Part shown: positions 9,624 through 39,253 of the stretch, one piece after another
How the letters are laid out: each line of letters opens with the position of its first letter
Numbering within the stretch: the stretch's first letter is position 1
Assembly: GCF_010509075.1 (NCBI RefSeq)
Contig: NZ_CP048433.1
Location: 1,860,001-1,924,000, forward strand
Length of the DNA: 64,000 nt
From: Collinsella aerofaciens ATCC 25986
GTDB lineage: Bacteria > Actinomycetota > Coriobacteriia > Coriobacteriales > Coriobacteriaceae
Reading direction: 5' to 3'
Notes under the pieces: generated by a model
The model's input: the letters and a program-made list of their open reading frames with translations, nothing else
What the model was told of the DNA's origin: nothing
The model's database searches: none
Made by a program: the position numbers and the translations under genes

Positions 9624-9736
9624 GGGGTGTTCCTATAGTTTTGTCAACTGGGCAATGCTGTTTTCGAGATTGAATCGCGACATGCTAACGCCAGGCCTTT
9701 CGGCCGATGGGCTCCAATCTGTTCGGAGCGCTTCGA

Positions 9737-10894
9737 CTAGGCGGCGTAGGGCACCCTGTCCCGCATGATCGCGTAGATGACCTTCAGCCTCTTTCGTGCC
9801 AGCGCCTTGAGCGCCTTGCCGTGCGGCATGCCCCGCTCTCGGCACCTAGCGTAGTAATCGCCCCATCTTCCCTCTGTCCGGGTAAGGCAGTTGCACGAGA
9901 ATATGAGCAGGTTCTTCAGCCTCTTGTTGCCTTGGCGCGATGCCGTCACCGAGGAGATCGAGGTCCCCGACTGGCGGTTGCGCGGCGCCAGGCCGCAGTA
10001 CGACGCGAGCCTGTCGTGGCTTGGGAAGTCTTCGATATCTATGGAGATCGCGAGCTCGGAAGCGGTTTTGGGGCCGATCCCCGGCACCGTCAGGAGGCAT
10101 CGGTAGGTATCGTCGCCCTCGAGGAGGGCGGATATCTCCGCCGTGATCACATCGATCTCCGCCGAGTTCTCGGAGATCCTGCGCGCGAGCAGCCTCACCG
10201 CCCGGTCCTCGGCGGCGATGGCCGCCGCGTCCGGCCTTGTCGAGGAGGCCGTCGAGCGGACGAGGGCCTCGATCTTGCCGCGCGCCGCCCCGCGCGTGAG
10301 CGCCGCCGCCCTGCGGGGCCCGGCGTCGGCCACCGACCAGGCCCCGCCGAGGGATGCCATGAGCCTCAGCTGGGGACCGTCGGACAGGTCGACCAACGCC
10401 TCGAAGGCGGGGCACGATTCCAGCAGGATGCTGCGCAGCCGGTTCTTGCTCCTGGTGTTTTCGCAGGTCAGGAAGTTTCTCTGGGCGGCCAGCGCCCTCG
10501 CCGCCGCGACCGTCGGGCCCGGATCCCCGACCGGCAGGAGTGCGTCGGGGATGCCCAGCGCCGTCTTCGCGATGACCATTGCGTCCCGCTCGTCGGTCTT
10601 GGCGTCGCCGGCGAAGAGCCTGGCGGCCCCGTGTGCCGCGAGTCCCGGCAGGTACGCCGCCGACATCCCGGCCGCCTTGGCGCGGGCGAGCGCGAGGGCG
10701 CCTATGTTGCGCGACTGGTCGACGACCACGAGCGCGTCGGGGAAGCGGCCGAACAGCGAGTCCAGATCGCCCTCCCTGTTCGCGACGGGGGCGCTCAGCA
10801 GTATCTCGCCGTCCCGGGTCGCGACGCATGCCCAATGGGACAATTTCCCGACATCGAGCCCGATGACGGCTTCCGGCATTCTAGGTGGTGCCAC
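9737..10894 (-). CDS. IS110-family transposase (DEDD recombinase)
   Basis: A protein of 385 residues. The N-terminal RuvC-like domain has AVIGLDVGKLSHWACV (first Asp), ALVVVDQSRNIGA and FAGDAKTDERDAMVIAKTA. The C-terminal Transposase_20 domain has LLTVPGIGPKTASELAIS, ASYCGLAPRNRQSGTS with the probable catalytic Ser region, and GNKRLKNLLIFS. I prefer the GTG at 10894, preceded by GGAGGATAACACC, to the ATG at 10909, which overlaps that ribosome site. The gene is intact, unlike its relative at 37853. The family uses a structured RNA to choose its target. Confidence 0.9.
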   Translation of the reverse strand: MAPPRMPEAVIGLDVGKLSHWACVATRDGEILLSAPVANREGDLDSLFGRFPDALVVVDQSRNIGALALARAKAAGMSAAYLPGLAAHGAARLFAGDAKTDERDAMVIAKTALGIPDALLPVGDPGPTVAAARALAAQRNFLTCENTRSKNRLRSILLESCPAFEALVDLSDGPQLRLMASLGGAWSVADAGPRRAAALTRGAARGKIEALVRSTASSTRPDAAAIAAEDRAVRLLARRISENSAEIDVITAEISALLEGDDTYRCLLTVPGIGPKTASELAISIDIEDFPSHDRLASYCGLAPRNRQSGTSISSVTASRQGNKRLKNLLIFSCNCLTRTEGRWGDYYARCRERGMPHGKALKALARKRLKVIYAIMRDRVPYAA

Positions 10895-10934
10895 GGTGTT
10901 ATCCTCCAATCGGTAGGCCGATCGGAACCCCTCC

Positions 10935-11160
10935 CTGCGACACCCACATTACCTGGCCGTGGCGCTTGCGCCCGGCAGTTTCCTATCAGTCGTCCGGAGC
11001 GGCGAGCGCCCCCGGTGGCAACACCCCCCGGGCCCTCTACGGGGCAGGGGCAGACGGCCATCCGGAGGCGCCCGATCGGCGGCCCCTCGGGGCTTGCCCG
11101 TATCGTAGGCAATGCGCCGAATGCTCGCCATCGAAATTTATCGGTGGCCCACTTCAGACT
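10935..11160 (-). ncRNA. Candidate IS110 bridge RNA (element at 9.6-11.2 kb)
   Basis: The non-coding leader of the IS110 transposase, read in the same direction. It shares conserved blocks with 39040-39235: CACATTACC (10946-10953 region), TTTCCTATCAG (10979-10989), CACCC and GGGCCCTCT (11022-11038) and CGGGGCAGGG (11040-11049). TTCCTAT repeats the element's left end and ATTAC the inverted right end, as donor guides would. GGGGCAGAC (11047-11055) matches 7 of 9 bases of the right insertion flank GGGGCGGTC. Boundaries are approximate and the RNA identity is inferred from IS621-type bridge RNAs. Confidence 0.6.
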
Positions 11161-11417
11161 GTAATGGGGCGGTCCCCCGCACATAAGCCGATCACCCCGG
11201 AAGCGGTTGGATCCGAAGCCGTTGAGGCGAACCTCAGGTCCCTTTTCTGCGAGCGCCCAGGGCGCCACACGCGTGCACAGACTGTCGGTTCGACGTAGAA
11301 GCCTCAGCCGTAGCAACGGATTGCCCAGCGAGAGATCGCCACGGGCGGATATTAAACTGCAAAGACGAGCGTCGGGAAGACACGCCGAGGTCGCCGCGGA
11401 CGGGTTGATATAGGGAG

Positions 11418-37499: not shown

Positions 37500-37812
37500 T
37501 AGTCATTGAGGACGTTCTTGTTTGACTGGTCGTTTAAGAGCGTCCCCAATGACTACTTAGGAATGAGCGTGGATAATCTCCCGTTTTTGGCCCCCGTGTG
37601 GGCTCAAAGTGGGAGATTATTCACGCTCGTTGGATAGGTGTCCGAAAATCAACGCTCATTCGGTTGGCGCAGGGGCAAGCTGTTTTCCGCTGTGGTGCCA
37701 CATGTGAGCCTGGCCTCCTATGCCAGATTCTAATAACGAGTTTACGGAATAAATAGTTATTAGAGCTGAAATGGCCGACCTAATGACGAGAAGTCGTTAT
37801 TAGGTCGGCCAT
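37500..37812. repeat. Cluster of three palindromic repeats left of the IS110 element
   Basis: Three successive long palindromes. (1) 37501-37519 with 37536-37554 (AGTCATTGAGGACGTTCTT with its near-inverse, 17 of 19). (2) 37565-37582 with 37611-37628 (GAGCGTGGATAATCTCCC, 17 of 18), enclosed by GAATGAGCGT and AACGCTCATTC. (3) 37771-37787 with 37796-37812 (ATGGCCGACCTAATGAC, 16 of 17). A fourth, starting TAGTCATTG at 37813, is split by the IS110 element. No gene is visible in 37432-37821. Confidence 0.75.
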
Positions 37813-37852
37813 TAGTCATTGGGTGTTCCTATAGTTTTGTCAACCGTCGGGG

Positions 37853-38988
37853 CTACTCCCGGTAGGGCACCCGGTCGCGCATCACGGCGTATATCGCCCT
37901 GAGCCGCTTCCTCGCGACGGCCTTGAGCGCCCGCCCGTGCCCCATGCCCCGCGCCCTGCAGGCCCGGTAGTACTCGCCGTAGCGCCCCGAGGACCTCACC
38001 AGGCTGTTGCACGAGAAGATCAGCAGGGACTTGAGCCTCGCGTCGCCGCGCCTGGACGCCCTGACCGACCTCACCGACGTGCCGGAGCTCCTCACCCTCG
38101 GGGCTATGCCGCAGTACGAGGCCAGGTGGTCGTGGTCCGGGAACCTCCCGATGTCGACCGACACCGCGAGCTGCGCCGCGGTCCTCGGGCCGATGCCGGG
38201 CACGGTGAGCAGACACGCGTAGGTCTCGTCGCCCTCGAGCAGCGCCGCCGTCTCGGCCTCGAGGGCCCCGGCCTCGTCGAGGGCCTCCGATATCCGGGCG
38301 GCCAGGAACCTGACCTGCCTGTTCTCGGCCTCGACGAGCGCCGGCGGGGGCGCGGTGGAGGCGGCCGCGGCCTCCCCGGCGGCCTCGGCCCGCGGGCCCT
38401 CGGCCCCGGAGCGGGCGATCCCCCACGCCCCCGCCGAACCCGGCGAGCAGCTCCAGCCACCGCCGGTCCGACAGGTCGACCGCGGCCTCGAGGGCCGGGC
38501 AGGACTCGAGCAGCACCGCGCGCAGGCGGTTCTTGTCCCTGGTCGCGCAGGCGACGACGTGGTCGCGCTGCGACGAGAGGGCGCGGGCGGCCTCGAGGGC
38601 CTCGCCGCGGCCCGGGACCCCCCGACAGGGAGTCCGGCACGCCCAGGGCGGTCCGCGCGATCACCGCGGCGTCGCGCTCGTCGGTCTTGGCCTCGCCGGC
38701 GAACAGGCCCGCGGCGCGGCTGGCGGCGAGCCCGGGCAGGTGGGCGACCCCGAGCCCCGCGGCGCGGGCCCGCCTCACGGCGAGGGACCCTATGTTGCGG
38801 AACTGGTCGACGACGACGAGCGTGCCGGCGGGCGCGGAGGCGAACAGCGCGTCGAGCTCGGCCTCCCTGTTGCGGACGGGGGCGCTGGCCAGCACCTCCC
38901 CGTCGCGGTCGATCAGGCAGGCCCAGTGCGACGACTTGCCGACGTCCAGGCCGAGCACGGCCGCGGGTCTGGTGGATGGCGCTTTCAC
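37853..38988 (-). pseudogene. IS110-family transposase with two frameshifts
   Basis: The N-terminal part (GTG 38988 after GGAAGGA; AAVLGLDVGKSSHWACLI, KTDERDAAVIARTALG) is in one frame, the middle (NRLRAVLLESCPALEAAV) in another and the end (LLTVPGIGPRTAAQLAVSV to DRVPYRE) in a third. The breaks fall at C runs on the plus strand, 38618-38623 and 38428-38432. At each, one extra base accounts for the shift, and the frame order agrees with two single-base insertions. Sequence is otherwise well conserved with the intact copy at 9737. Real decay or homopolymer sequencing errors are both possible. Confidence 0.85.
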
Positions 38989-39039
38989 GGTGGTATCCTT
39001 CCGGTAGTCGTTCGACCGGATGGCCTCCCCCTCGGCACT

Positions 39040-39235
39040 CACATTACCAGCCGCGGCGCCTGCCCGGCACTTTCCTATCAGCCGTCGGGGGCGGCGCGTC
39101 CCGCGCCGGCAGCACCCAACAGGCCCTCTCGGGGGCAGGGACGTTCGGCCGTGCGCGGGCGCCCGGTCGGCGGCCCGTTCTGGGCGCGCCTCAATCGTAG
39201 CCCGAGACGGTCCCGGGCTGACAATTTCGACTGTA
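39040..39235 (-). ncRNA. Candidate IS110 bridge RNA (element at 37.8-39.2 kb)
   Basis: Non-coding leader of the transposase. Conserved with 10935-11160: CACATTACC, GGCGC-TGCCCGGCA, TTTCCTATCAG, CACCC, GGCCCTCT and GGGGCAGGG. TTCCTAT equals part of the element's left end, and ATTAC the inverted right end. GGGACGTTC (39138-39146) is identical to nine bases of the restored right target, including the GG core, while CCCAA (near 39115) is the inverse of the left-target TTGGG. In the transcript these would pair with opposite target strands, as target guides of a bridge RNA do. Ends are approximate. Confidence 0.65.
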
Positions 39236-39253
39236 ATGGACGTTCTTAAATGA

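Follow-up and report, generated by a model that had tools for sequence, protein, structure and literature searches.

Does the non-coding DNA ahead of a decayed IS110-type recombinase gene in Collinsella aerofaciens ATCC 25986 encode an RNA that tells the element where to insert, and can the insertion sites of its relatives be read from theirs? The locus lies in a stretch of 64,000 nucleotides, the whole of which was analysed and is called the window here. The initial annotation proposed that a nine-base block in the leader repeats one side of the target, and that CCCAA nearby answers to the other side; both are indeed present in the non-coding leader, in plus-strand letters as GGGACGTTC at 39138-39146 and CCCAA at 39115-39119. 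On sequence evidence, we have little doubt that the locus is an insertion sequence of the IS110 group whose left end encodes a bispecific bridge RNA. The element and its target are as follows.

37823-39237, minus strand: IS110-group element of type B, 1415 bp, starting with ATTACAG and ending with GGAACAC (basis: the empty site L255 and other type-B copies in the genus).
39238-39247, minus strand: left target, AAGAACGTCC in element sense (basis: the empty site L255).
37811-37822, minus strand: right target, CCAATGACTAAT in element sense; joined to the left target it gives the palindromic repeat TAGTCATTTAAGAACGTCCCCAATGACTA.

An empty site was sought in 42 genomes through a shared neighbouring gene, which matched in 21, and in one of these (L255) both flanks were present and the element was absent, the site being AAGAACGTCC^CCAATGAC, read as AAGAACGTCCCCAATGAC and with its context as AAGTAGTCATTTAAGAACGTCCCCAATGACC. 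L255 and the window showed 99% identity across 264 bp of the flank beyond the right end of the element. Because the window copy splits the bases of this site as AAGAACGTCC / CCAATGAC, the element extends from ATTACAG to GGAACAC and target duplication is absent, the insertion point lying between C2 and C3 of a four-C run. A duplicated GG core, with which the initial annotation had restored the right target, would leave three C in the empty site, while L255 has four; it was therefore rejected, that restoration being one base short. Another genome (L248) matched on the gene side only and carries a CCTC variant of the empty repeat there, and the remaining matched genomes had no such repeat directly at the gene or only a partial gene match. 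A vacant CCTC variant of the target repeat is also found in the window at 37500-37518, about 300 bp from the type-B element.

The recombinase genes of this element and of a relative in the window are listed below.

37853-38988, minus strand: recombinase gene of the window copy, with two frameshifts at about 38.43 and 38.62 kb; the start codon is predicted.
9627-11165, minus strand: type-A relative, 1539 bp, in a run of eight C.
9740-10909, minus strand: intact type-A IS110 recombinase, one of ten identical copies in the genome.

The frameshifts were located by comparison with an intact copy, and the pieces match, in different frames, DEDD_Tnp_IS110 and Transposase_20 (PF01548 and PF02371). Besides the ten identical type-A copies, the genome holds one intact type-B copy and several broken ones, including the window element. 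Because the window copy is frameshifted, its recombinase would come from L011, the intact type-B copy; the gene of L011 ends about 0.5 kb ahead of the window start, and its leader is identical to that of the window element. The transposase at 9737, suggested earlier as the partner for in vitro recombination, is the type-A enzyme and only 63% identical, and L011 is the proper partner. The type-A recombinase scored above the cut-off of NF033542 (the NCBI family "IS110 family RNA-guided transposase") and is homologous to the IS621 and ISCro4 transposases of solved structure; the S-G motif falls in a significant segment of the alignment, and the K-T-D-x-x-D segment aligned below threshold only. 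It has the DEDD RuvC-like domain and the Tnp domain with a conserved serine that mark the IS110 group, and full-length type-A recombinases are 94-95% identical in named Collinsella records. The IS1111 group, which has its RNA downstream of the recombinase and long subterminal inverted repeats, was rejected on RNA position, the RNA here lying ahead of the recombinase within the left end. L005 and L010 (the window copy at 9627-11165), two type-A copies whose flanks are the same, occupy one C8 run at positions offset by a single base, which suggests two insertions into duplicated DNA, or slippage.

The leader of the window element contains the following predicted parts.

39040-39237, minus strand: non-coding left end with the bridge RNA (basis: a model of 42 aligned leaders and its matches across the class).
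39138-39146, minus strand: left target guide GAACGTCCC, in the sense of the target top strand and predicted to pair with the bottom strand.
39115-39119, minus strand: right target guide TTGGG, the complement of CCCAA and predicted to pair with the top strand.
39072-39078, minus strand: left donor guide ATAGGAA, matching the right end of the element, ..CTATAGGAACAC.
39040-39047, minus strand: right donor guide GTAATGTG, the complement of the junction between right end and left end (RE-LE), CACATTAC; the ends are those fixed by L255.

That the two target guides match opposite DNA strands of the insertion site, as had been claimed, was borne out by the sequence. The RNA model was built on 42 aligned leaders of relatives (36 distinct rows), and a search with it recovered the RNA from 79 of the 396 genomes of the taxonomic class. 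According to the 36-row alignment, the leader 5' of the recombinase encodes a structured RNA with two internal loops, and its four helices, two per hairpin, have 98.1% of their cells paired and seven pairs changed on both sides. None of 500 shuffles was as high on four of five helix measures; for the remaining one, which counts pair types, 118 of 500 were. The two target guides lie opposite one another in internal loop 1, which is bounded by covarying helices, and the donor guides likewise in loop 2, so that the order of target loop, donor loop and recombinase is that of the IS110 group, as the initial annotation had it. The suggested fold prediction was less uniform: the aligned leaders give the two-hairpin form, whereas the window RNA folded singly takes a different fold and showed no unusual stability (z -1.16; 26 of 200 shuffles as good). 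The type-A leader folded singly was somewhat better than its shuffles (z -2.21; equalled by 4 of 200). A scan of the window against Rfam at the curated threshold gave no match.

The left donor guide followed the right end of the elements closely. At the variable bases, guide and end agreed in all 106 rows in which a guide was found, the rows overlapping between two collections, and the motif located no donor guide in 5 of 111 rows; one of these five, L226, has ACGGCGA against the right end ATAGGGA, a poor match. Three donor types were distinguished by the left donor guide, namely GATAGGAA, GATAGAGA, and GATAGGGA (with GCTAGGAA in two rows). A putative promoter is split between the two ends.

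37838-37843, minus strand: -35-like TTGACA in the right end, a promoter half complete only at the RE-LE circle junction.
39230-39235, minus strand: -10-like TACAGT in the left end, the other half of the junction promoter.

Joining the ends completes TTGACA-17-TACAGT, with a spacer of 17 in all 63 rows that have both ends, the -35 element reading TTGACA in 62 of them and TTGACG in one; TTGACA was not part of the search motif, and ATTACAG was. L046, which lies outside this set, has TTGGCA. We envisage that the element would leave as a circle, that the promoter at the RE-LE junction would drive the bridge RNA in this circle, and that recombinase from the intact type-B copy would then hold target and donor. 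The recombining pair predicted for type B is the donor ...GGAACACATTACAG... with AGAACGTCCCCAATGACTA.

When the cut is placed at the observed junction, target positions 8-9 read CC and the donor AC, with only position 9 in common. The passages available from PMC11208158 and PMC11208160 describe for IS621 a CT core in both target and donor, after which the top strand is cut (PMC11208158); such an identical dinucleotide is absent here, as judged from the empty site and the element ends. In most rows the right guide is followed by a U that is unable to pair with target C8 but able to pair with donor A8, and the next two bases, G and U, could do so with donor C7 and A6, respectively; the window copy has C as its third base, which cannot. 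Such pairing of UGU with the donor would resemble the published handshake pairing.

We collected 73 elements, requiring ATTACAG as the left terminus together with GTAATGT in the leader. One (L042) had no readable guide, which left 72 rows, and removal of 12 without a full flank or guide class and of 10 that repeated a site left 50 unique sites (35 of class A, 8 of class B, and 7 of class C). In distant loci, guides were read by alignment to the model. The three main right-guide classes are GGGGGG (a few CGGGGG) in A, TTGGG in B, and GGGACG in C, and the right flanks past the cut are mostly CCCCC, CCAA, and GTCCC, respectively. Class A is represented in the window by the type-A relative.

11047-11055, minus strand: type-A left target guide GTCTGCCCC.
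11024-11029, minus strand: type-A right target guide GGGGGG, its site being the C run.

At the 50 sites the mean match of the right guide to flanks of its own class was 4.7/5 in A, 4.5/5 in B, and 5.0/5 in C, against 0.5-2.9 of 5 for mismatched classes, and none of 20000 permutations reached the observed left or right sums. Because related rows inflate such figures, the recombinase tree (midpoint-rooted; 36 rows from 38 loci with a recombinase match, of 93 sources of the model search) carries more weight. Read by eye, it shows GGGGGG to be widespread, TTGGG to have arisen once, and GGGACG twice in separate places, and each of these three changes of the right guide was accompanied by a complementary change of the right flank. 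One of them separates a sister pair with 100/100 support, L219 with guide GGGGGG and right flank CCCCC and L224 with GGGACG and GTCCC. All class-B copies share essentially one guide, and class B therefore counts as a single evolutionary event. One row, L233, does not fit (right guide GGGAGG, right flank CCCAG), and L071 and L074 fit their GGGGGG guides in part. Four loci with differing right guides (L211, L223, L227, and L234) had no convincing right end and were counted neither way, as was the ambiguous L232. L068 (G178) has its right end joined to a CATTAC stretch that resembles the one in a bridge-RNA gene, and another left end lies close by in inverted orientation, which looks as though right-donor-guide DNA had once served as a target; it was kept in the counts despite this odd right end.

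The correlation of guides with flanks, which the initial annotation had put forward as the check, thus came out clearly for the right guide, whereas the left guide was clear in type B only. A guide block that stays invariant while targets differ, named there as counter-evidence, was not seen for the 3' guide and was in part seen for the 5' guide. Type-B left guides matched their flanks over eight bases (mean 7.1/8), and 20 of 22 rows keep GAACGTCC. In class A it reached 4.1/8 on class-A flanks, where own flanks barely beat shuffled ones (1146 of 20000 shuffles as good) and the guide is hardly reflected in the bases to the left of the C run; an identical left guide occurs in 22 rows with these bases varying, and left guides differ between lineages (GTCTGCCCC, TTCTGCCCC, CTTCCGCCC, CTTTTCCCC, and others). 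The class-C left guide in strict register matched its own flanks at 3.7/8, compared with 4.4/8 for the same guides on class-A flanks; slid by one base it reached 4.7/8, with about six bases paired. As far as these alignments go, the left target guide is persuasive in type B only.

These results bear on a refinement of our explanation, in which the RNA is a bridge RNA whose right guide and the core-proximal C's of whose left guide set the target in most of the clade, the outer left guide acting in type B only. The lineage-dependent class-A left guides, with left flanks nearly unmatched past the C run, speak for it, as does the right C run of exactly five in 25 of the 35 class-A sites; the eight-base match in type B stands against it, and so does L056 (G006), where guide GAATGTCCC sits at left flank GAATGTCC, though four other rows with GAATGTCCC sit at GAACGTCC. 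We regard this refinement as a possibility to be taken seriously, short of being the expected outcome. L056 (about 1025-1260) is itself unusual in that a type-B left end lies inside the left part of another type-B copy, at CGAACGACTACC; the guide of the outer copy, GAATGTCCC, matches its own left flank GAATGTCC.

Could it instead be the recombinase protein, or the shape of the hairpin in the repeat, that selects the target, with the RNA otherwise employed, for example in regulation of the recombinase? Small RNAs that regulate the transposase are indeed described for ISPpu9 in the part of PMC8450116 available to us, and the class-B and class-C targets are both palindromic repeats. The uninterrupted class-B repeat was found in 21 of 42 same-genus genomes (reversed-pattern control, 0), and among the 150 matches listed 136 show exactly four C, the other 14 being variants of which none has three C. 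All 13 of those 42 genomes with type-B pieces, as recognized by eye, contain the repeat (G033, outside this set, is also type B), a co-occurrence behind part of which shared ancestry may lie. The class-C target is a second palindromic repeat, AGCCCCGTCCC, found as AGCCCCGTCCCAAAAAGACTA in 11 of 42 genomes (control, 0), with four C in 33 of the 34 copies among the matches listed. Against a choice by protein or hairpin, class A enters plain C runs, with at least eight C in total at 31 of 35 unique sites, and the sisters L219 and L224 differ alike in right guide and right flank; such a choice is very improbable. No uninterrupted C or G run of at least seven was found in the 64 kb window.

That the nine bases match by chance, the leader being GC-rich, or are a fragment captured from the repeat that does not act as a guide, is hardly credible: a left-target match of at least nine nucleotides did arise 10 times in 5000 dinucleotide shuffles of the 194-nt leader, and GAACGTCCC with at most one mismatch occurs in the window at chance level (17 found against 18.3 expected), but the ordered pair of guides arose in none of those shuffles, both blocks share the internal loop between covarying helices, and right guide and right flank changed jointly three times, their match being equalled by none of the 20000 permutations. 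In the 64 kb window the leader is the one place where the two guides are found in order, as GAACGTCC-N(8-35)-TTGGG; of 100 whole-window shuffles, 4 contained such a pair anywhere. Because GAACGTCCC is at chance frequency in the window, the strength of the bridge-RNA explanation comes from position, order, and covariation, and not from the 9-mer alone.

Under the bridge-RNA explanation the relatives would be the same machine with other guides, GGGGGG directing them to runs of about eight C and GGGACG to the repeat AGCCCCGTCCC. Tentatively, at somewhat under an even chance, we propose a Coriobacteriia bridge-RNA clade that usually hunts C runs through its GGGGGG right guide and whose aim has shifted through changes of a few letters on at least three occasions, two of them towards Collinsella palindromic repeats, and whose recombination would need one shared core base, position 8 being mismatched and the UGU beside the right guide pairing with donor A-C-A after strand exchange. 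If the one-base core is true, the published core rule of IS621 is loosened, and a natural system with a mismatched core would be useful for learning how much freedom the core has in programmable recombinases. Relatives whose guides differ occupy sites that differ accordingly, so that the insertion sites of a family of gut-bacterial insertion sequences can largely be read from its RNA, and three natural re-aiming events, including one sister pair, are on hand.

Much of this has precedent. In the available passages of PMC11208160 and PMC11208158, IS621 likewise has a DEDD/Tnp recombinase, an RNA in the left end, the order of target loop, donor loop, and recombinase, a left guide pairing with the bottom strand and a right guide with the top strand, a promoter rebuilt at the RE-LE junction, and insertion into extragenic palindromic repeats. 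Its right guide is described there as four bases (extendable to seven), compared with five or six from position 9 here, and the commonest target of our clade differs in being a C run. The seekRNA of ISEc21, as presented in the part of PMC11187229 available, also lies 5' of the transposase, with a bottom-strand match preceding a top-strand match and target duplication not characteristic; its RNA and insertions are experimental, whereas the Collinsella element is known by computation, and hosts and targets differ. Natural re-aiming is reported in the same source, for example between ISEc11 and ISXne4 of the IS1111 group. Insertion sequences in REP sequences (PMC1525189, as far as its available text goes; also IS621 in REP) share a defined insertion point in a short extragenic palindrome. 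Those parts of PMC11208160, PMC11187229, and PMC1525189 thus already describe bridge RNAs, extragenic palindromes as insertion sites, and natural re-aiming; added here are a new clade, the C-run habit, two Collinsella target repeats, three guide/flank changes, and the one-base core agreement. A literature search for IS110 in Collinsella listed a single paper, on the gut microbiomes of herdsmen, and the elements may already stand in ISfinder or in the supplements of PMC11208160.

Both Collinsella target repeats were found by the searches of this analysis, and no Collinsella palindromic repeats of this kind appeared among the literature matches listed, as judged by title and start of abstract. 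In G002, G006, G009, G020, and G031 the class-C repeat is often present as two inverted copies separated by about 85 bp, like the ends of a small non-autonomous element. Repeats of the form AGAACGTCCAATGACTA, two C shorter than the standard, occur at G003:C9:56030, G003:C55:4686, G006:C6:233883, and G009:C6:6490, and are possibly scars of imprecise excision.
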